From positions 1 to 38,619 of the forward strand of contig JAFSVK010000123.1 in assembly GCA_017444985.1 (NCBI GenBank): DNA of 38,619 bases. Direction: 5' to 3'. Source of the DNA: Bacillota bacterium (GTDB lineage Bacteria > Bacillota > Clostridia > Lachnospirales > CAG-274). Below, piece after piece: positions 8,211 to 26,585 of the stretch. Every line of letters begins with the position of its first letter. Position 1 is the stretch's first letter. Below the pieces are notes generated by a model that ran no database searches, was not told the DNA's origin, and was given only the letters and a program-made list of their open reading frames with translations. The translations under genes were made by a program, and so were the position numbers.

Positions 8211-8266
8211 CGTTACAAATATTTTTGGGGTACATAGAGGTGCCCCCATGCGAAAGGAGCGTATGT

Positions 8267-11200
8267 ATGAGAAAGAGATTATTGGCGACGATACTTGCTT
8301 TCACCATGGCTTTGGGTATAAACGTATATGCCCGCTACGATGTTGATACCTACAACTATCGTAAGACCACCGATTTGGAAGCTTCTATAGAAGAGGGCAA
8401 GATCACCGTTACCTGGCCTGCGGTAAATAAACAAGGGGAGCTTATAAACGCCAACCCCTTGCAGTCTAACTCAGCCTACGGAAATCCCACGGGAGGCTGG
8501 ACGGCACCTACTGCGGGTATGATAATAGGCTATCCCAATTGGCAGGCGGACGGTACCGTTAAGCCCAACAACGGAGATAAATCGGGTAATAACCCTATAT
8601 ACAGAGGTTTTGTAAGCGATGTTACGGACTATCCCGTAGCCATGCAAGACCCTAAAGATTCTTCTGTTATAGCTAAGGATGGCTATATAGATACTACGGT
8701 GGTTTCTGCGGACTATGCCTCCGCCTACCGTATCTATACCTCTACGGATAATGTAAACTGGAAGCTGGATCACGATATGACTACCGTGGATCACGGCAAA
8801 AAGTTTGCCCGTCCCAACGGTGACGGCACATATACCGCAGACAGACAGAACACCTTCTTCCTTGAAGACCAGTATGTGGAACAGTTGGTAGGTTCCTTTG
8901 AGGCGGATACCACCTACTATATAAAGGTGGTCGCTACCTGTGCCTCAAAGCTTACGGATAACTACAAAGAGTTTACCACCTCCATAAAAACAGAGGCGGC
9001 AAAGGTGCTTTATCCTGCCTTCCCTACGGTAGAGGGCAGCGGTATCTATGCCCAGGGCGGAAGAGGTACAGACGAAAAGCCGGGAGATGTTTATGTCGTT
9101 ACAAATCTTACCGACTCTGTTTCAGACCCTCAACCCGGTTCTCTTCGCTACGGTCTTTTGAGAAAGGACAGAGCGGACGGTAATTCTCTTTACCCCAGAA
9201 CAATAGTTTTTGCCGTAGACGGTGTTATAGATATAGACCCTACGGTATCAAAAAGCCAGAGAAGATTTAATGTAAACTCCAACACCACCATAGCGGGACA
9301 AACAGCTCCCGGAGAGGGTGTTACCATAAGGGGCGGTTCCGTTAAAATAGACGGAAGCGACATTATAGTAAGATACTTGAGAATAAACCTTGGAGAAGGT
9401 TATGACCAGGATGCGGCAACGGCAACGGGTGAAAACATCGTTGTGGATCACTGCTCTTTCATGTGGGGCGTTGACGAGTGCTTTACCGCAAAAGAGATAA
9501 TAAACTCAAGTATACAGTACAACATTATAGCTACAAGCTTGGGTTTCCCCGATAAAACAGGCTCAAACAACTCCGATGCGGAGATAGTTGCGGGAGAAAG
9601 CGAAGCAAAGCACGGTATGGGCTCCATACTTAACGGTTACAATGTTTCCTACACCCATAACCTTTGGGCAAACCACGGCACAAGAAATCCTCGTTTTGAA
9701 GGGGGATTTACATATAAAAATGTGACCTACGGCAACCTTATGGACTTTTCAAATAACGTCATATACAACTGGGGACATAACTCGGGCTACGGCGGTGAAA
9801 GAGGAAACGGCACCACCAATATGGTGGCAAACTACTACAAGCCCGGACCCAACACCCTTGAAAAGGCATACACAAGAATATTCGATGTTGACGGCAGCAC
9901 AAGCAAGTACTATGCTACGGGCAATGTTATGACATCAAGTTCCGATGTTACAAGCGACAACACTCAAGGTTTCTTTGAGTCCACCGCTTCCACCTTCCTT
10001 TCTTCCAAGGCTCAACTTCAAAATGTCTACACGGAAGAAAGTGCAAACGATGCTTACGAAAAGGTACTTTCAAATGTAGGAGCATCCTTTAGAAGAAATG
10101 CACAGGATGCACGCCTTGTTGAAGATGTAAGAAACGGTAAGGGACAAACCATAAACAACGAAAAGGAAGCAGGCGGTGTGATAGTAAGTGATTACGGTAT
10201 CTCCGCACCTGCAGACACCGACAAGGACGGTATGCCCGACAGCTGGGAGATCGCTCACGGTTTAGATCCTTCGGATGCAAGGGATGCGGGACTTATAGTT
10301 CGTGATGAAACAAAGTCCTACAACGGCTATTCAAATATAGAAGTTTATTGTAACGATATTTTGGGAGAGTGGAAAGAAAGTGACAACTCCGCTGTAAGAA
10401 GCGCCAACCCCACCGTAATACTTGAGGGTGTTGATATGCAGCAGGGTGGCTTACTTGTTCCCAAGGACAACAATATAGTACTTGAAATAGGTGAAAGTTA
10501 CCACGCTAAGGCAAGCGTAAGCGGAAGCAACTATGAAGTAAGAGTAAACGATACCGCAGTTTCAAAGGGTAGCCTTGATTTTACCCTTCCCGAAAGTCTT
10601 GCACCCGGTACCTACTACCTTACGGTGGTGGAGCATACCTCAAGAGGTGACGGCATATCCGAAAAGGTAAGATTTACCGCAGTTCCCAAGGGCTCTGTGG
10701 GAAATAACCTTGAAAACTTCGTATCAAACGATATAGGAAAGGTAAGATTTACGGGTAGTGACAACTACGATAGCGCAAACTCTACCCTTACACAGGTAGG
10801 CTCGGGTAGGATAGGTATACTTAACACCACAAGCACCTATGAAAAAGATGCCTTCCACTATGATTATACACAGGTAACGGGAGACTTTACATTCTCCGCA
10901 AGAATGGACAACCTTGCCAAACTTGACTATCTGCAAAAGTCGGGTCTTATGGTAAGAGGCTCCCTTTCACCCGAAAGTGAAATGTATATGGCCTCTCTCA
11001 CCTACATAAAGGGAGAGGACTACGAAGGCAGCGTTGATGTGGTGGGCTCTGCCATGAAGGCTAAGACTATACGCCCCGTAACAAGAACGGCAGACGGTGC
11101 CAATGCCATAGCAAGAAACAATATGTTGGGTATAGCTCAGGTAAGAGAAGGCTCCACACCTAACCACGGCTACGGCAAAATAGAAAGAAAGGGCAATACC

Positions 11201-11587
11201 ATAAACATATACGGCTCTTTAAACGGCACCGATTGGTATGAACTCTACACCTGGGAGTCTACACTTCCCGAAAAATGCTACATAGGTTTTGCCACCGATG
11301 CGGCTCAGGACTATATGGAGCTTAGCAGAATGAATGCCACACTTTTCTCCGAAATAGCTATAGAAGGCGCAATATCCAAGCCTCAGCTCATTTTGGGAGA
11401 TGTAAACAGCGACCTTTCCGTAGACTCAAAGGATGCCTCCTTGGTACTCCAACACTCCAGCGGTGCAGTACTCTTAGAAGGCGATGCCCTCACAGCGGGT
11501 GATGTAAACTTTGACTCATCGGTAGATTCAAAAGATGCTTCCCTTATACTCCAGTATACATCGGGCAGTATAACAAGTTTTAAATAA
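8267..11587 (+). CDS. large secreted pectate-lyase-like protein with C-terminal dockerin
   Basis: This 1106-residue protein has a signal peptide (1-22), a beta-sandwich/fibronectin-like region interrupted by an insert (about 35-245), and a pectate-lyase-like beta-helix (about 250-620). The helix has the marks YVVTNLTDS, GSLRYGL, TIAGQTAPGEGV and VVDHCSFMWGVDE of the PL1-related group. A Ca-binding DTDKDGMPDSWEIAHGLDP segment, a DUF1349-like jelly-roll (DFTFSARMDNL...SGLMVRG) and a dockerin pair (about 1045-1106; DVNSDLSVDSKDAS and DVNFDSSVDSKDAS) follow. It probably cleaves pectin outside the cell. The start ATG at 8267 follows AAAGGAG; the frame opens earlier, but the signal peptide fixes this start. 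The enzyme subfamily is not certain. Confidence 0.88.
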   Translation: MRKRLLATILAFTMALGINVYARYDVDTYNYRKTTDLEASIEEGKITVTWPAVNKQGELINANPLQSNSAYGNPTGGWTAPTAGMIIGYPNWQADGTVKPNNGDKSGNNPIYRGFVSDVTDYPVAMQDPKDSSVIAKDGYIDTTVVSADYASAYRIYTSTDNVNWKLDHDMTTVDHGKKFARPNGDGTYTADRQNTFFLEDQYVEQLVGSFEADTTYYIKVVATCASKLTDNYKEFTTSIKTEAAKVLYPAFPTVEGSGIYAQGGRGTDEKPGDVYVVTNLTDSVSDPQPGSLRYGLLRKDRADGNSLYPRTIVFAVDGVIDIDPTVSKSQRRFNVNSNTTIAGQTAPGEGVTIRGGSVKIDGSDIIVRYLRINLGEGYDQDAATATGENIVVDHCSFMWGVDECFTAKEIINSSIQYNIIATSLGFPDKTGSNNSDAEIVAGESEAKHGMGSILNGYNVSYTHNLWANHGTRNPRFEGGFTYKNVTYGNLMDFSNNVIYNWGHNSGYGGERGNGTTNMVANYYKPGPNTLEKAYTRIFDVDGSTSKYYATGNVMTSSSDVTSDNTQGFFESTASTFLSSKAQLQNVYTEESANDAYEKVLSNVGASFRRNAQDARLVEDVRNGKGQTINNEKEAGGVIVSDYGISAPADTDKDGMPDSWEIAHGLDPSDARDAGLIVRDETKSYNGYSNIEVYCNDILGEWKESDNSAVRSANPTVILEGVDMQQGGLLVPKDNNIVLEIGESYHAKASVSGSNYEVRVNDTAVSKGSLDFTLPESLAPGTYYLTVVEHTSRGDGISEKVRFTAVPKGSVGNNLENFVSNDIGKVRFTGSDNYDSANSTLTQVGSGRIGILNTTSTYEKDAFHYDYTQVTGDFTFSARMDNLAKLDYLQKSGLMVRGSLSPESEMYMASLTYIKGEDYEGSVDVVGSAMKAKTIRPVTRTADGANAIARNNMLGIAQVREGSTPNHGYGKIERKGNTINIYGSLNGTDWYELYTWESTLPEKCYIGFATDAAQDYMELSRMNATLFSEIAIEGAISKPQLILGDVNSDLSVDSKDASLVLQHSSGAVLLEGDALTAGDVNFDSSVDSKDASLILQYTSGSITSFK

Positions 11588-18053: not shown

Positions 18054-19187
18054 ATGAAATTATCAAAATTTACAGCCCTTACTCTTTCGGTGGTAACACT
18101 TTTTACTACCTGTGTTTGGGCAAACTCGGAAAACTATGTTTCCAAAAATCAATCAGTAAAAGATGGGGCATCCCTTGCCAGGGCAAATATTATTATTCGC
18201 CCCGAGGATGAGGTGGAAACGGGAGATTCCATAATTATAACCTTTAAAAATGCAAAGGTATTCTCTCAGGCTGTAATAGACGGTACCACCAGCGACTCCA
18301 CCCTTAAGGGCTATAAGAGCGGTGGCTACCAGTACAAGTATGATGGGGATATATGGAATAAGAGACACGGCTTTAACGAGATAAAAGACGAGCTTGACGG
18401 CAATGAACTTCCCTATAGGATACAGAGAACGGGAGACCATGAGATAGAGGTATTCCTCTGCGACCTTCCCGATGCTTACACGGATGACAAGTATCACTAC
18501 GAGATACCTATAGTAGCCTATGCCGATGTAAATACGGCTACGGGCAGGACCATAACAGCTACCATAGACTCCAACGGCACAAGTATCTCAAGCGGTAATG
18601 CTATGGGAAACGGCACAACGGCAGGAGGCAAGGAAGAGGAAGAAGAAAGCAGTTCAAGTAAAAAAAGTTCATCTTCATCATCTTCAAGTGATAGTTCAAC
18701 GGAGGCTACCACAAAAACTCCCGTATCAAATGTATCTGTGGAAACAAATACCGGAAACGGCACACAGAAACAAAGTACATATGTAAGAGTGCAGATAGGT
18801 GCTTCTCAACTTAAAGTAAATGCTACGGCTTACGATATCGACGTACCTGCCTACATACAGCTTGAAAGTCAGTCTACCATGGTGCCTTTGCGTGCCGTAA
18901 CGGCAGCTCTTTCGGGTATGGCAGGCTCATATCAAAATGCCGACAGTATAGTAAGCTGGGATGCGGAAACAAAGACCGTAAATATAAACTACAAGGGAAA
19001 GAAAATAAGCTTCACCTCGGGTAGTGAGTACATGACGGTAAACGGTGAAAGAACACTTATGCCAAACGGTGTTAAAACAGAAATAGTAGAGGGAAGGACC
19101 TTTGTACCCTTCAGAGCGTTAGGCAATGCCTTGGGTGTAAGTGTAGATTGGGAAGCGGAAACAAAGACAGCTGTATTTGTATCATAA
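18054..19187 (+). CDS. secreted protein with C-terminal stalk (copper amine oxidase N-like) domain
   Basis: The 377-residue protein has a signal peptide (1-23), an N-terminal beta-rich domain of unknown type (about 30-180), an acidic/serine linker (about 195-222, with SSSSSSSS), and a C-terminal stalk domain (about 240-377). The stalk contains the pair STMVPLRAVTAAL...VSWDAETKTVNI and RTFVPFRALGNALGVSVDWEAETKTAVF, typical of the copper amine oxidase N-terminal-like family. The stalk domain binds or displays proteins at the cell surface in Clostridia; no enzymatic role is known. AGGAGG precedes the ATG. A dockerin protein follows 16 bp later. Confidence 0.88.
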   Translation: MKLSKFTALTLSVVTLFTTCVWANSENYVSKNQSVKDGASLARANIIIRPEDEVETGDSIIITFKNAKVFSQAVIDGTTSDSTLKGYKSGGYQYKYDGDIWNKRHGFNEIKDELDGNELPYRIQRTGDHEIEVFLCDLPDAYTDDKYHYEIPIVAYADVNTATGRTITATIDSNGTSISSGNAMGNGTTAGGKEEEEESSSSKKSSSSSSSSDSSTEATTKTPVSNVSVETNTGNGTQKQSTYVRVQIGASQLKVNATAYDIDVPAYIQLESQSTMVPLRAVTAALSGMAGSYQNADSIVSWDAETKTVNINYKGKKISFTSGSEYMTVNGERTLMPNGVKTEIVEGRTFVPFRALGNALGVSVDWEAETKTAVFVS

Positions 19188-19203
19188 GATAAGGGCTGAT
19201 CAT

Positions 19204-19749
19204 ATGAGATACCAAAAATTCCTTATAGCCTTAATTTTACTTTGCGGTCTCTTTACTGTAAATGCCTATGCCTTTAGCATAGACTCGGCAAGAGAAAAGA
19301 ACGGCAGTGTAGAGGTGGTTTGTAAAAGAGACGACAAGGGAGCCTTTAATGCTGTGGCATACGCAAGGCAACAGGATGCGAACGATATTTCCACGGCTAT
19401 ATACTTTGATTTTCTTCAAGTGGATGAGGGAGAGGATATGTCCTTTTCCTTTAAACTCCCCGAAAAGACTCAAAAAGATAAGGTATATATTTTGACCGTA
19501 TCCTGTGATACGGGCAGGGATACCAAAATAATATATTTTGAGGCTGAGGGCAGTGTTTACCTCTTAGGAGATATAAACGAGGACGGCTTGGTGGACTCAA
19601 AGGATGCCTCGGTACTTTTGCAGGCCATAGCCAAAAACGATACCGCCTCCATACTTGAAAGAGCCGATGTAAATAAGGACAAAACGGCAGACAGCAAGGA
19701 TGCCTCCTTGATACTTTCCTATGCCTCGGGGCAAACGGAGGGTTTTTGA
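19204..19749 (+). CDS. small secreted dockerin protein
   Basis: The 181-residue protein has a signal peptide (1-23), a short beta-domain of about 90 residues, and a C-terminal dockerin pair (121-175; GDINEDGLVDSKDAS and DVNKDKTADSKDAS). It has no visible catalytic domain, so it may be a structural or adaptor component. The start is the ATG at 19204 with AGATAAGGGCTGATC upstream. It is the last gene of the hslO run. Confidence 0.85.
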   Translation: MRYQKFLIALILLCGLFTVNAYAFSIDSAREKNGSVEVVCKRDDKGAFNAVAYARQQDANDISTAIYFDFLQVDEGEDMSFSFKLPEKTQKDKVYILTVSCDTGRDTKIIYFEAEGSVYLLGDINEDGLVDSKDASVLLQAIAKNDTASILERADVNKDKTADSKDASLILSYASGQTEGF

Positions 19750-20344: not shown

Positions 20345-20379
20345 TTGACTTTACAAGTAAATTTATATATAATACAAGT
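20345..20379 (+). promoter_or_regulatory. promoter of the CobK-CbiE-CbiT-like / CbiA-like / stalk unit
   Basis: TTGACT (near 20345) and TATAAT are 17 bp apart in a very AT-rich stretch. The leader is about 75 nt. This promoter also argues against translation starting further upstream in the open frame (from 20216). Confidence 0.8.
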
Positions 20380-20455: not shown

Positions 20456-22393
20456 ATGACAAAACTTATGATATTTGCCTGCACTTCCGAGGCTTTGGAG
20501 CTTATAAAAAGGTGCAGAGATTACAAAAACTTAAGCTTAGATATATTTACAAACGCATCGGGTGCGGAAAAGCATATACCTTTGGGAGAGAATATCACTC
20601 TTCATACGGAGGAAACGGATGAGGTGGCGCTGGCGGTCACCATAGGAAATATGCGCCCCGATCTTATAGTGGATGCCTCGGGAGGGGCTTTGGGTAAGCA
20701 TATATCAAAGGCAGCCTCCGTAGCGGGGATAAGGTGTATAGTGCTTTCTATAGATAAAAGCATAGAAGCCTACGGCTTAGTGGTAGACAACGTGGCAAAG
20801 GCTGTAAAAATGGTGGGTGCCAACAGGGGCAACATACTTTTAAGTGGCCTGTCGGCTAAAGATTTTGCGTCTATCCCCGGCTTTTCGCAACGATGCTTTT
20901 GGGAAAACACAGACCAAGCGGATACGCAAAAGGCTATACAAGAGGGTGTAGCAAGGGAAAATATTATAAATATGCCATCTAAAGCCAAAGCCTCCGACTA
21001 TGGCGAGGTCATAAAGCGATATAATATAAAATATATACTTACTACCTCTTCGGTGGAAAACATATATCTTAAAAGACAGGCCTGTAAGGCTTGCAATGCG
21101 GTGCTTGTGGCTGTAAAAGGCGAAAATGAAATGAGTTTGGATAAAACTCTTCTTGAAGTAAGAGATCTGTCGGGTAAAAAGAAGCTTAATATTCTTGCTA
21201 TAGGTCCCGGAAGGCAGTCCCTTATGAGCATGGAGACACAAAATGCCCTAACATCCTCCCATGCCCTTATAGGTGAGGAGGAGACTCTTAAACTCCTTGA
21301 CAGCTTTAAAAAAGAAAAAGTAAAAACGGACAGTATAAAAGATATGCTTTCTTTTATAATTTCTTCCTCGGGGAATATTTTTTCTCTTGTATATACCGAC
21401 AGTGAAAAGCTTTTTTCCTCCGTGGATGAAATAACGGAGTATTGTGAAAAAGAAGGTATAGAAGTAAATAACATTGTAGGTGTATCAACCTCGGACTACT
21501 TGGCGGGGAAAATAAATATAAGCAGCAACGGTGTTAAAAAAATAGATGCAAGGCAAAAGGGAGCACCCTTTTTAAATGATATAAAAGAGAATACTTCAAT
21601 ATTTATACATGCGGGGAAAAATGCTTCCCTCATACTTTCAAGGCTCTGTGATGAAGGTCTTGAAAGGATAAGAGTGTGTGTGGGTATGGACCTAAGCCTT
21701 GAAAGAGAGAGGATATTAAGCGGTTACCCCGAAGACCTTAAAAGTTTGAACTTCAGCGAAAACACTCTTTTGTATATGGAAAACGATGAGGGTGGAGAAA
21801 GCCTTAAAATAGGTATTAAAGAAAACAAGTTTTTAATTCCCGATGATGCAATGGCTCTTGCAAGTGAAGTCAGAGCGGTCATAATGAGTAAGTTTTCCTT
21901 GAAAAGAAGTGATAACATACTTTTTGCGGGGGGAGTATTCCCCGACCTTATAACGGAGTGTGCTTTAAATCTTCCTAATGGAAGGGCGTACATATTGGAA
22001 GAGAAGGGGGAGAATATAAGCATCATAGGTAAAAATGCCGCTCGTTTTTCACTTTCCAATATAGATACAAGGCAGTGTACTTTAAGAGATGAGACTACAG
22101 TAAAAGAAGAAGTATCTCAAATGGAAGATATAGCCTGTGTCTTTTCCGACAGCAGTGTAGGTATAGAAAATATTTATACCGCTCTTTTGAAGAAGGACAG
22201 CACAAAGAGATATGTTTTGGCTCTCTATTCCCCCGAAGAGGTGGCGAGGGCATCCAAAATATTTGAAAAATACGACTTTGAAAATATAGACCTTTGCCTT
22301 ATGAATATTTCAAAGGGCAAAAGGATAAACGGAAAGACAAATATAAAAGAAAATGATTTTATATATATTTTAACCGCAGATACGGGATTTTAA
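20456..22393 (+). CDS. CobK-CbiE-CbiT-like fusion with altered catalytic motifs
   Basis: The 645-residue protein has three corrin-pathway folds. Residues 1-222 resemble precorrin-6A reductase (CobK): FACTSEALEL, DLIVDASGGALG and NIINMPSKAK..YNIKYILTTSS. Residues 243-445 resemble the methylase CbiE (ILAIGPGRQSLMSMETQNALTSSHALIG). Residues 460-645 resemble the methyltransferase CbiT (ASEVRAVIMSKFSLKRSDN). In each part the key motif is changed. The CobK DSG-type triplet reads TSS and the DATHPYA region reads DASGGAL. The CbiE GDP motif reads TDS. The CbiT SAM loop DIGAGTG reads FAGGVFP. The frame is intact and followed by a CbiA-like gene. It is either repurposed or recently inactivated; the start at 20456 is chosen by fold and promoter. 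Confidence 0.8.
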   Translation: MTKLMIFACTSEALELIKRCRDYKNLSLDIFTNASGAEKHIPLGENITLHTEETDEVALAVTIGNMRPDLIVDASGGALGKHISKAASVAGIRCIVLSIDKSIEAYGLVVDNVAKAVKMVGANRGNILLSGLSAKDFASIPGFSQRCFWENTDQADTQKAIQEGVARENIINMPSKAKASDYGEVIKRYNIKYILTTSSVENIYLKRQACKACNAVLVAVKGENEMSLDKTLLEVRDLSGKKKLNILAIGPGRQSLMSMETQNALTSSHALIGEEETLKLLDSFKKEKVKTDSIKDMLSFIISSSGNIFSLVYTDSEKLFSSVDEITEYCEKEGIEVNNIVGVSTSDYLAGKINISSNGVKKIDARQKGAPFLNDIKENTSIFIHAGKNASLILSRLCDEGLERIRVCVGMDLSLERERILSGYPEDLKSLNFSENTLLYMENDEGGESLKIGIKENKFLIPDDAMALASEVRAVIMSKFSLKRSDNILFAGGVFPDLITECALNLPNGRAYILEEKGENISIIGKNAARFSLSNIDTRQCTLRDETTVKEEVSQMEDIACVFSDSSVGIENIYTALLKKDSTKRYVLALYSPEEVARASKIFEKYDFENIDLCLMNISKGKRINGKTNIKENDFIYILTADTGF

Positions 22394-22407
22394 AGGAGGA
22401 GAGGGAT

Positions 22408-23757
22408 ATGTCAAGAGTAATGCTTGCGGCAACATCAAGCGGCAGCGGTAAAACATCCATAACATGTGCTTTATTAAAAGTTATATTAAACAGGGGACTT
22501 AGTGTTAAGTCCTTCAAATGCGGTCCCGATTATGTAGATGCTATGCTCCATAAAAGCATAACGGGAGTGGAAGCGGGAAATCTCGACGGATTTTTCAACG
22601 ATAAAAATGCCATAAGGCAGAGGCTTGCGGAAAGCAATGCGGATATAAATGTAGTGGAAGGCGTTATGGGCTACTACGACGGTATAGCCTTTAGCGACAA
22701 GTATTCAAGCTACGATATAGCTATACAGACAAATACCCCCGTAATATTGGTGCTTGACTGTAAGGGTATGCTAAACTCCTTGGGTGCAGTGCTTAAAGGT
22801 TTTGTCACCTACAGGGAAAACAGCGGTATAGCAGGTATTATATTTAACAGATTGCCTGCAAATCTTTACGATGTTGTAAGCTATATAGCCTTGGATCTGG
22901 GTGTGGTACCTTTGGGATACTTGCCCAACCTTGATGAGGGACTTTTTGAAAGCAAGGATATAGGTCTTGTAACTCCCGATAACATAAGCGAGTTCCATGA
23001 AAGAGTTGACGAACTTGCCGAAAATATAGAGCGCTACATTGATGTGGACAGGATCATAAACATCGCACAGGCAGCGGGAGAGATAGAGTTCGAAAAGAAC
23101 GAAGTGGAAAAGAGTTTCTCCCTTGATATTGCGGTGGCTCACGATAAAGCTTTTTGCTTTAACTACGGAGATAACTTGGCACTCCTTGAAAAAATGGGTT
23201 GCAACATAAAGTTTTTCAGCCCCTTGGAGGACAGCGAGCTTCCCGATTGCGACGGTCTTATTATAAACGACGGCTATCCCGAGGTGTATGCGGAGGAGCT
23301 TTCCGAAAACACCACCATGCTCAAGTCTATAAATAAGGCTATAAAAGAAGGCCTTCCCACCATAGCTACGGGCAATGGTTTTTCCTATCTCCATGAAGAG
23401 CTGGAAAGTACCGACGGCAACTACTTTAAAATGGTGGGCTTTATAAAAGACAAAGCCTTTAATATGCACAGGCTCCACTCCCACTGCGGATATATCACCG
23501 CCAAGGCTACAAAGGACAACCTCCTTTGCAAGGCGGGAGAAACTTTTAACTCCAACGAAAGCCACTACTACGACAGTGACAACTGCGGAGAGGATTTTGA
23601 GGCAAATGTACCCGTAAGCAACAAGAAATGGAAAACAGGTACCGCTACGGCTACACTCTATGCGGGTTATCCCGTGATATATTTCCCGGGTGCTCCTAAG
23701 ATGGCGGAAAACTTCCTTAAGACTTGCAACCGCTACAAAGCAAAAAAGAATAAGTAA
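22408..23757 (+). CDS. CbiA/CobB-like amidotransferase with apparently inactive glutaminase domain
   Basis: The 449-residue protein is the cobyrinate a,c-diamide synthase fold. The synthetase part is conserved: P-loop SSGSGKTS (10-17), KCGPDYVDAMLH (37-48), GNLDGFF (57-63) and VVEGVMGYYDG (82-92). The GATase-type C-terminal part (about 240-445) lacks the catalytic Cys: the AECGG motif reads ATGNG (320-324). The late SYxHLH motif also reads YPVIYF (421-426). The enzyme would then need free ammonia or do a different ligation. AAAGGAGGAGAGGGAT is the ribosome site, 14 bp after the fusion gene. No other B12 genes are visible. Confidence 0.85.
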   Translation: MSRVMLAATSSGSGKTSITCALLKVILNRGLSVKSFKCGPDYVDAMLHKSITGVEAGNLDGFFNDKNAIRQRLAESNADINVVEGVMGYYDGIAFSDKYSSYDIAIQTNTPVILVLDCKGMLNSLGAVLKGFVTYRENSGIAGIIFNRLPANLYDVVSYIALDLGVVPLGYLPNLDEGLFESKDIGLVTPDNISEFHERVDELAENIERYIDVDRIINIAQAAGEIEFEKNEVEKSFSLDIAVAHDKAFCFNYGDNLALLEKMGCNIKFFSPLEDSELPDCDGLIINDGYPEVYAEELSENTTMLKSINKAIKEGLPTIATGNGFSYLHEELESTDGNYFKMVGFIKDKAFNMHRLHSHCGYITAKATKDNLLCKAGETFNSNESHYYDSDNCGEDFEANVPVSNKKWKTGTATATLYAGYPVIYFPGAPKMAENFLKTCNRYKAKKNK

Positions 23758-23769
23758 GGACGGGATATT

Positions 23770-24609
23770 ATGAAATTGCAGGTATTGAAAGTTGGGCTTG
23801 CCACTCTTTTGTGTACAAGTGCCGTTTATGCTTCGGAGGTAAGGGTGACACTGAACAATTCCTTTGTGTCCTTTCCCAACGGGCAACCTCGTATAGTACA
23901 GGGCAGGACCCTTGTTCCCGTAAGAGGTCTGTTTGATAATATGGGCTATGATATTTCCTGGGAAGCGGAAAGTAAAACCGTGACACTCTCAAAAGAGGGC
24001 AGTGATATAGTCATACATATAGGAGATGATTTTCTTACGGTAAACGGCAAAGAGGTTTCTCTTGATGTACCTGCCCAGATCATAGACTCTTCCACTATGC
24101 TCCCTTTAAGGGCTATATCCGATGCTACGGGAGCTGTGACATTGTGGAACAGTGACTATAAGACAGCTTCTGTGGTGGAAAGAGGTATTCAAGCCGAATA
24201 TCCCCAAAGAGAGCTAAATTTAAATACCTCTGCGGAAAAAACTTATGTAGAGGCATTTTCCCAAATATCAAAGAAGTTTAATGAGGACAACAAAGAAAAT
24301 GTGGCTGTATTGTCAAAGGCTTTGAAGGATGGAAATATTTCCTCTCTTTCCTCCGTGTCGGCTACCTTCCTTTCCTCCCTAAGAAGTACGGAAAAGGAAA
24401 TAGCCTCTTTGGATACCCCCTCATCTTTGGAAGATTTAAGCGTTGCGGCAAGAAACTATCTTTCCGCCCTCGAAAGCCTACTTGAATATACCCAAAGCTA
24501 CAGCGAGGGTAAGATAGAAAAGGGCGAGTACGTAAAGGAAATAGAAAACAGATTTTCCAACCTCTTGGTAGCCCAAGCGGTCTATACGGAAGAAATAAAT
24601 TCCCTTTAA
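23770..24609 (+). CDS. secreted stalk-domain protein with helical C-terminus
   Basis: The 279-residue protein has a signal peptide (1-22), a copper-amine-oxidase-N-like stalk domain (about 23-140; GRTLVPVRGLFDNMGYDISWEAESKTVTL and STMLPLRAISDATG), and a helix-rich C-terminal region (about 150-279). The start lies 12 bp after the CbiA-like gene, so it is the third gene of that transcript. Its stop codon is the TTAA of a 21-bp terminal inverted repeat (24606-24626). Function is unknown; linkage to the corrin-like pair is the interesting part. Confidence 0.87.
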   Translation: MKLQVLKVGLATLLCTSAVYASEVRVTLNNSFVSFPNGQPRIVQGRTLVPVRGLFDNMGYDISWEAESKTVTLSKEGSDIVIHIGDDFLTVNGKEVSLDVPAQIIDSSTMLPLRAISDATGAVTLWNSDYKTASVVERGIQAEYPQRELNLNTSAEKTYVEAFSQISKKFNEDNKENVAVLSKALKDGNISSLSSVSATFLSSLRSTEKEIASLDTPSSLEDLSVAARNYLSALESLLEYTQSYSEGKIEKGEYVKEIENRFSNLLVAQAVYTEEINSL

Positions 24610-24770: not shown

Positions 24771-24778
24771 GAAATAAA

Positions 24779-24816
24779 GGAGTGTGAAAACATAATTTTG
24801 CTTTCACACTCCTTTT
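24779..24816. terminator. terminator after the corrin-like unit
   Basis: GGAGTGTGAAA and TTTCACACTCC form an 11-bp stem followed by TTTT on the plus strand. On the minus strand the tail is TTTATTTC, so it may serve both sides. Confidence 0.8.
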
Positions 24817-26369: not shown

Positions 26370-26585
26370 TGATGTGACATAAGAGCGATGAAGCAGAGGT
26401 TGCCGTGAAAGCGGGTTTTCTGCGGAGCGATGTCCGGTTCAAGAAAACGGGCGACAAGGTCAGAGTGTTATATGTTGTTTGTGTGTTTCTTAGAGGAAGT
26501 ATCCTTATGAGTTGCAAAAAGAAACACGCGGATAAGTGTGCAGTCACCGCTTGTCGTACTAAAAGATTTTAAAAGTGCGAAAAGG
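26370..26585 (+). ncRNA. candidate S10 operon leader RNA
   Basis: About 220 nt separate the promoter from rpsJ. The leader begins GATGTGACATAAGAGCGATG, is GC-richer than its surroundings, and has several complementary pairs (GCGGGTTTTC/GAAAACGGGC; GTGTGTTTCTT/AAGAAACACGC). Firmicutes S10 operons often carry an autoregulatory leader here. Assigned by position and apparent structure only. Confidence 0.5.

Follow-up and report, generated by a model that had tools for sequence, protein, structure and literature searches.

Does a protein that passes the score thresholds for cobyrinate a,c-diamide synthase (CbiA) still work in vitamin B12 synthesis when its residues for glutamine use are gone, and if it does not, what keeps the gene in place? 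The gene lies in the window, a contig of 38,619 nucleotides (C71 of 219 contigs) from the Bacillota genome G000. The genus was covered by three MAGs (G000, G001 and G002; 98.5, 78 and 71% complete), and absences from the latter two are weak evidence. recA and the first part of the rpsJ ribosomal operon also lie in the window, which is therefore part of the chromosomal core and not a stray contig. An S10-Clostridia ribosomal leader (RF03136, 65.5 bits; 26380-26457, + strand) lies 5' of rpsJ, and a tRNA scan of the window returned none. A large protein resembling pectate lyases (8225-11587, + strand) and a small protein with a dockerin (19177-19749, + strand) suggest a pectin-degrading, possibly cellulosomal lifestyle, and the pectinolytic genes, with relatives sampled from gut or rabbit, point to a gut bacterium as the host. 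The locus is organized as follows.

20345-20373, + strand: promoter-like TTGACT-17-TATAAT, about 80 bases before the fusion ATG, 11 of 12 matches
20456-22393, + strand: CbiJ-CbiE-CbiT fusion, 645 aa, CbiE SGD and CbiT GAGTGS lost; AlphaFold2 pLDDT 84, pTM 0.40
22393-22399, + strand: Shine-Dalgarno-like AAGGAGG 5' of cbiA, read by eye from the sequence
22408-23757, + strand: CbiA homologue with a pseudo-glutaminase, 449 aa; AlphaFold2 mean pLDDT 93.3, pTM 0.90
22408-23115, + strand: synthetase (P-loop) half, residues 1-236, unchanged at 34 of 37 invariant positions, predicted dethiobiotin-synthetase-like fold
22435-22458, + strand: P-loop, residues 10-17 (S10-S17), with invariant S11, G14, K15 and T16
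23116-23754, + strand: glutaminase-like half, residues 237-449, GatD-like, predicted fold kept, active site lost
23269-23283, + strand: GGYPE motif read as DGYPE, residues 288-292; G288 in 107/107 relatives
23365-23379, + strand: nucleophile elbow AECGG read as ATGNG, residues 320-324; E321, C322 and G323 each in 106/106 relatives
23554-23571, + strand: HEFHY(Y) read as NESHYY, residues 383-388; H383 in 104/105 and F385 in 105/105 relatives
23668-23685, + strand: (Y/F)PH motif of the catalytic His, here YPVIYF, residues 421-426; H423 in 105/105 relatives
23770-24609, + strand: third gene, 279 aa, Cu_amine_oxidN1 domain and a signal-peptide-like start (by eye), 12 bases after cbiA
24776-24815, strand not assigned (scored on the - strand): 17-pair hairpin after the third gene, possible terminator

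The region holds 19 promoter-like sites against 12.4 expected, and the site at 20345 is thus suggestive only; terminator-like hairpins number 7 against 5.5 expected. The longest frame for the fusion opens at TTG 20216, a start that was rejected, as homology begins at ATG 20456. Proteins with a Cu_amine_oxidN1 domain flank the fusion-cbiA pair on both sides (18054-19187 and 23770-24609, + strand). The G001 contig ends within cbiA, so the linkage of the third gene is seen in the window only.

The frame at 22408-23757 (+) consists of 449 codons, begins with ATG and has no internal stop. A domain search resolved two domains, a CbiA/AAA_26 P-loop domain and a GATase_3 domain. The protein scored 367 bits against NF002204 over residues 1-421 (cut-off 254) and 302 bits against TIGR00379 (cut-off 261). 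Two other identities were rejected: CfbB, with 296 bits against NF033195 over residues 3-391, far under the cut-off of 560, and CobQ/CbiP, with 21.6 against NF001989 (cut-off 273). KCGPDYVD occupies residues 37-44 and VVEGVMGYYDG residues 82-92, and every motif named in an earlier sequence-only reading was found where that reading had placed it. Judged by sequence, the protein descends from CbiA.

The residues of the glutaminase site were compared in a MAFFT alignment of 114 CbiA homologue loci with the window protein (115 rows), from which five duplicates, the window's own copies and G001 were removed to give 107 distinct relatives. ATGNG aligned on AECGG and Val423 on the catalytic His. The position of Cys322 is Cys in 106/106 relatives with a letter there and Gly in the window, and that of His423 is His in 105/105 and Val in the window. 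These data confirm the claim of the sequence-only reading that the glutaminase Cys and His are replaced. They add G288D, E321T, G323N, H383N and F385S, so that D288, T321, G322, N323, N383, S385 and V423 stand in place of G, E, C, G, H, F and H. The CbiA proteins of Salmonella, Peptoclostridium and Lachnospira and three CobQ proteins gave the same placement, each with its Cys and His. Placement of Cys250 or Cys281 in the elbow would have counted against the sequence-only reading, but both fall outside it and were rejected as displaced nucleophiles: Cys250 is the nearly invariant Cys of an AFCF motif, and Cys281 aligns with a Cys of one relative (L054).

An alignment with 38 relatives other than G001 (A1) was used to locate the changes. 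Of the 19 invariant positions that fall in glutaminase motifs, 8 are changed in the window protein; the figure is 1 of 23 for the remainder of the C half (Fisher p ~0.006) and 3 of 37 for the N half (p ~0.004), with motif ranges chosen post hoc, after the changes were seen. The C half as a whole keeps 33/42 invariant positions. The N half keeps 34/37 with three conservative changes, in line with the earlier description of an intact synthetase half, and its P-loop and substrate motifs, which carry the residues for ATP and carboxylate chemistry, retain 19/20 invariant residues; the sole change, I43V, is common to G001. Measured against the class I (triad) glutamine amidotransferases, the protein has the GATase fold in its predicted structure and neither the Cys nor the His. 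The alignment shows that the residues for glutamine use are missing, and the protein almost certainly has no glutaminase activity. Only a single genome documents the loss of the triad, because the G001 CbiA ends at residue 243.

AlphaFold2 predicts both domains of the CbiA homologue with confidence. The predicted N half matches dethiobiotin synthetase (VIA Z 17.6, ~16% identity over the N half), and its modelled fold is of the dethiobiotin synthetase/ParF/MinD/HypB type. The predicted C half matches GatD (VIA Z 18.6, rmsd 3.8, 206 aligned). A sequence search of solved structures with the window protein alone gave no match at E 0.01, and the same search with alignment A1 matched three GATase chains.

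The genome was searched for the pathway that would supply a CbiA substrate. The tetrapyrrole-methylase search of G000 (PF00590) returned RsmI only, and CbiL/F/H-type methylases were not found. CbiC was found in 0/3 genus genomes and in 21/48 of the family, HemB in 0/3 and in 3/3 other family members tested, and the cobalamin riboswitch in 0/3 and in 7/12 genomes. A second CbiA or a CobQ was not found in G000; its GATase_3 matches are the CbiA homologue, PdxT and HisH only, and CobQ is therefore absent. Without HemB, CbiC, CbiL/F/H-type methylases, CobQ and a B12 riboswitch, G000 should not make cobyrinate, and synthesis of cobyrinate by the cell is not expected from the genome as assembled. 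The CbiA homologue is thus very probably not part of B12 synthesis. A B12-binding domain occurs in 3/3 genus genomes; the one in G000 matches methionine synthase and scores under the full-length metH cut-off, and this methionine-synthase-type protein indicates that B12 is probably imported and used. A corrinoid salvage set was not found, with cobU, cobT, cbiB and transporters outside the search. The sequence-only reading had proposed an enzyme or binding protein with an intact ATP half that does not use glutamine, and that part stands; the carboxylate-bearing, cofactor-like substrate that it also proposed is no more than a possibility. It had missed the absence of a tetrapyrrole/corrin pathway, the eroded fusion and the other altered proteins of former B12 synthesis.

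CbiJ-E-T fusions adjoining CbiA are common in Clostridia, so the fusion in the window is not new. Its predicted structure is fair within domains, but the pTM is only 0.40. The comparison was made at positions that do not vary in at least 95% of 30 relatives, with gaps scored as changes. In CbiJ, 25 of 36 of these positions are changed in the window, 20 in G001 and 17 in both; the corresponding values are 14, 9 and 8 of 23 for CbiE and 25, 8 and 7 of 37 for CbiT. The SGD of CbiE reads TDS in the window, and the GAGTGS of CbiT is lost in the window and kept in G001. G018, a genome of the same family, carries two copies of the fusion (C7:35347-37245 and C30:8631-10565) together with CbiC, CbiD and CobS, and no CbiA match.

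Two further B12-pathway proteins are altered in the genus. CbiD is present in 3/3 genomes, and 18 of 61 positions invariant in 70 relatives are changed in all three, including a short deletion; the three proteins share 66-71% identity at dN/dS 0.14-0.20. CobS is present in 2/3 genomes (G000 and G002), and both proteins depart from 54 relatives at 8 of the 25 positions where those relatives do not vary. Asp82, Asp86 and Asp106 are among the eight, residues of a kind that presumably serves catalysis in CobS. The genus thus keeps descendants of at least four B12 enzymes, each without otherwise invariant residues, in genomes lacking the start of the pathway. Changes that are shared and then conserved, most clearly in CbiD, look like reuse, whereas the rapid evolution of the fusion and the lack of a CbiA in G002 (71% complete) look more like decay.

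The surroundings of these genes were also recorded. The orphan CbiD loci are L156 8547-9665 (+), L157 1425-2579 (-) and L158 9201-10340 (-), in the conserved order cbiD-178 aa protein-malic enzyme-argH-yebC, of which malic enzyme, argH and yebC were observed in G000 and G002. The 178-aa protein directly follows cbiD (L156 9665-10201, +), has no Pfam or NCBIfam family match and, among the loci compared, is found in the three genus genomes only, at 37-42% identity. The divergent CobS loci (L153 7472-8242, -; L154 8142-8915, +) both lie beside a gene for a CPBP-type membrane protease. These neighbors gave no useful clue to a substrate: in G000, CobS adjoins the CPBP protease gene and an aminotransferase gene, and CbiD adjoins malic enzyme, argH and yebC.

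Substitution rates were estimated by NG86. The comparison of G000 with G001 covers the CbiA N half only, as the G001 protein is cut at residue 243, and gave 77.8% identity, dN 0.17, dS ~2.9 (near saturation) and dN/dS ~0.06. The comparison genes, measured between G000 and G002, were ArgH (dN 0.15, dS 2.1) and malic enzyme (dN 0.11, dS 1.2). Against its only congener sequence, the N half is apparently under purifying selection, and reuse is favored for CbiA because constraint on its ATP half is about as tight as on these housekeeping genes. The fusion shows 28.4% identity between G000 and G001, with dN 0.83 and saturated dS. Tajima-style relative-rate tests paired three outgroups, picked by identity and not by tree, with five sister genomes. 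The G000 CbiA was faster at p<0.05 in 2/15 comparisons for the N half and 10/15 for the C half, comparisons that share sequences and are not independent. Mean identity to relatives is 41.5% for the N half and 43.3% for the C half, with no overall acceleration of the C half by this measure; the relative-rate tests alone show it. In the same tests CbiJ and CbiE are fast in both G000 and G001, and CbiT only in the window. Neutral simulation at 0.1 substitutions per site left ~0.3% of CbiA frames and 0/300 fusion frames free of stops; frames of these lengths would be expected to gain stops well before the observed divergence. A search for the marks of a pseudogene (stops, frameshifts, dN/dS near 1) found the frame open and the N half at the dN/dS given above for one congener. 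Neither gene was found in G002 (71% complete). Together, these data show an ATP half that is held, a glutaminase half that drifts about twice as fast and a fusion that changes rapidly yet stays open. The CbiA homologue is likely to have been retained by selection.

The reading we prefer, with a probability of roughly 0.55, is that the protein descends from CbiA, has a dead glutaminase and an intact ATP site, and has been reused together with other remodeled B12-pathway proteins. One competitor is slow decay, in which the genus lost the pathway and still carries cbiA and the fusion as incipient pseudogenes not yet with a stop. The low identity and high dN of the fusion between G000 and G001 agree with decay, as do the state of CbiT, altered at 25 of 37 invariant positions in the window but at 8 in G001, and the failure to find either gene in G002; the fast CbiJ, CbiE and, in the window only, CbiT also fit relaxed constraint. 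We nevertheless consider decay unlikely. The dN/dS of the CbiA N half is low, both frames are open at a divergence where neutral frames gain stops, the CbiA losses are concentrated in the glutaminase motifs (8/19 compared with 1/23 elsewhere in the C half), the CbiD changes are common to three species and then held, and promoter-like and Shine-Dalgarno-like sites are present.

The protein may tentatively be seen as a non-catalytic ATP switch or chaperone of the MinD/BioD kind that binds a corrinoid or a partner protein and makes no bond to nitrogen. The modeled fold of the N half suits such a role, as do the methionine-synthase-type B12-binding protein and the lack of a detected B12 riboswitch, and the loss of conserved residues from the fusion, CbiD and CobS suggests that what they have in common may be binding and not catalysis. 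However, all P-loop and substrate-motif invariants bar I43V are kept, which is beyond the need of a plain switch. An ammonia-dependent amidase of corrinoid salvage, repairing or amidating imported corrinoid acids, would draw on the intact synthetase half and the methionine-synthase-type protein, and human CPS1, in which a Cys-less glutaminase domain accompanies an ammonia-using synthetase, is a precedent (PMC4655335). This role is improbable given that G000 lacks CobQ, CbiC is absent, CobS is without its conserved Asp residues and no salvage set was found within the scope searched. Ammonia supplied in trans by PdxT or HisH, both present in G000, or lesions that are assembly errors can scarcely be credited: PdxT and HisH are ordinary equivalogs with pathways of their own, and errors would not be expected to produce eight changes grouped in motifs while leaving the frame otherwise clean.

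According to the preferred reading of reuse, the CbiA homologue would be made and selected for, and its P-loop half would still bind and split ATP; ATP use by the protein is moderately likely. The C half would be a folded pseudo-glutaminase serving as a structural or interface domain. Mechanistically, the former synthetase site would most likely support chemistry or switching that depends on ATP. An amide product, if one is still made, would have to draw its nitrogen from free ammonia or a different amine, as CPS1 does, and we regard amidation with free ammonia as doubtful; if no amide is made, the protein would be an ATP-gated binding or assembly factor. Its retention with an equally altered cohort (the CbiJ-E-T fusion, CbiD and CobS) suggests that part of the pathway has been reused, perhaps for handling imported corrinoids, because a methionine-synthase-type B12 protein is kept. 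A more speculative proposal is that CbiD, the fusion, CbiA and CobS were redeployed as a new module after the B12 pathway was dismantled, with most active sites given up and the CbiA ATP site as the main catalytic center, acting on imported corrinoids or on something non-tetrapyrrole.

If the cohort is functional, it would be a natural case of a dismantled pathway reused piecemeal, and it would offer a CbiA synthetase domain for study uncoupled from its glutaminase. One paper reportedly describes a remnant pathway factor that was turned into a peroxin. Searches of the openly available PubMed Central literature turned up no CbiA devoid of glutaminase residues and no reuse of a B12-pathway cohort; nor did they yield a CbiA that has lost its glutaminase site, keeps a constrained ATP half and belongs to a cohort of altered B12 enzymes. 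An orphan cbiA alone is ordinary, since orphan cbiA/cobB genes in non-producers are already on record (PMC6461909); cbiA/cobB has also served to mark B12 synthesis in DNA from the environment (PMC6461909). The gene described here passes the curated CbiA cut-off, yet its genome seems unable to make B12 and its protein lacks the residues for glutamine use, and annotation by score therefore misleads.

The known systems place the protein closest to CbiA/CobB, with which it shares the two-domain architecture, the P-loop, KCGPDY.D, EGVMG.YDG, scores above both cut-offs and the usual CbiE-T neighbors, often as a CbiJ-E-T fusion. It differs in lacking the catalytic Cys and His, in its altered HEFHY and GGYPE motifs and in a genome where no corrin pathway was seen. 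The Ni-sirohydrochlorin a,c-diamide synthase CfbB is homologous over residues 3-391 (296 bits), but the window protein scores far under the CfbB cut-off of 560 and no tetrapyrrole synthesis was seen in the genome. Dethiobiotin synthetase (BioD) carries out ATP-dependent carboxylate chemistry without a glutaminase. It resembles the N half in predicted fold but has no C-terminal domain and only ~16% identity over the N half. GatD of the MurT-GatD complex has a GATase_3-type fold like that predicted for the C half, and its triad Glu is missing (PMC5871853); unlike the window protein, GatD retains both Cys and His and has glutaminase activity. Human CPS1 pairs an ammonia-using, ATP-dependent synthetase with a class I glutaminase domain that no longer has its Cys (PMC4655335). 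The CPS1 synthetase is unrelated and its function is known, whereas the window protein has eight motif positions changed.
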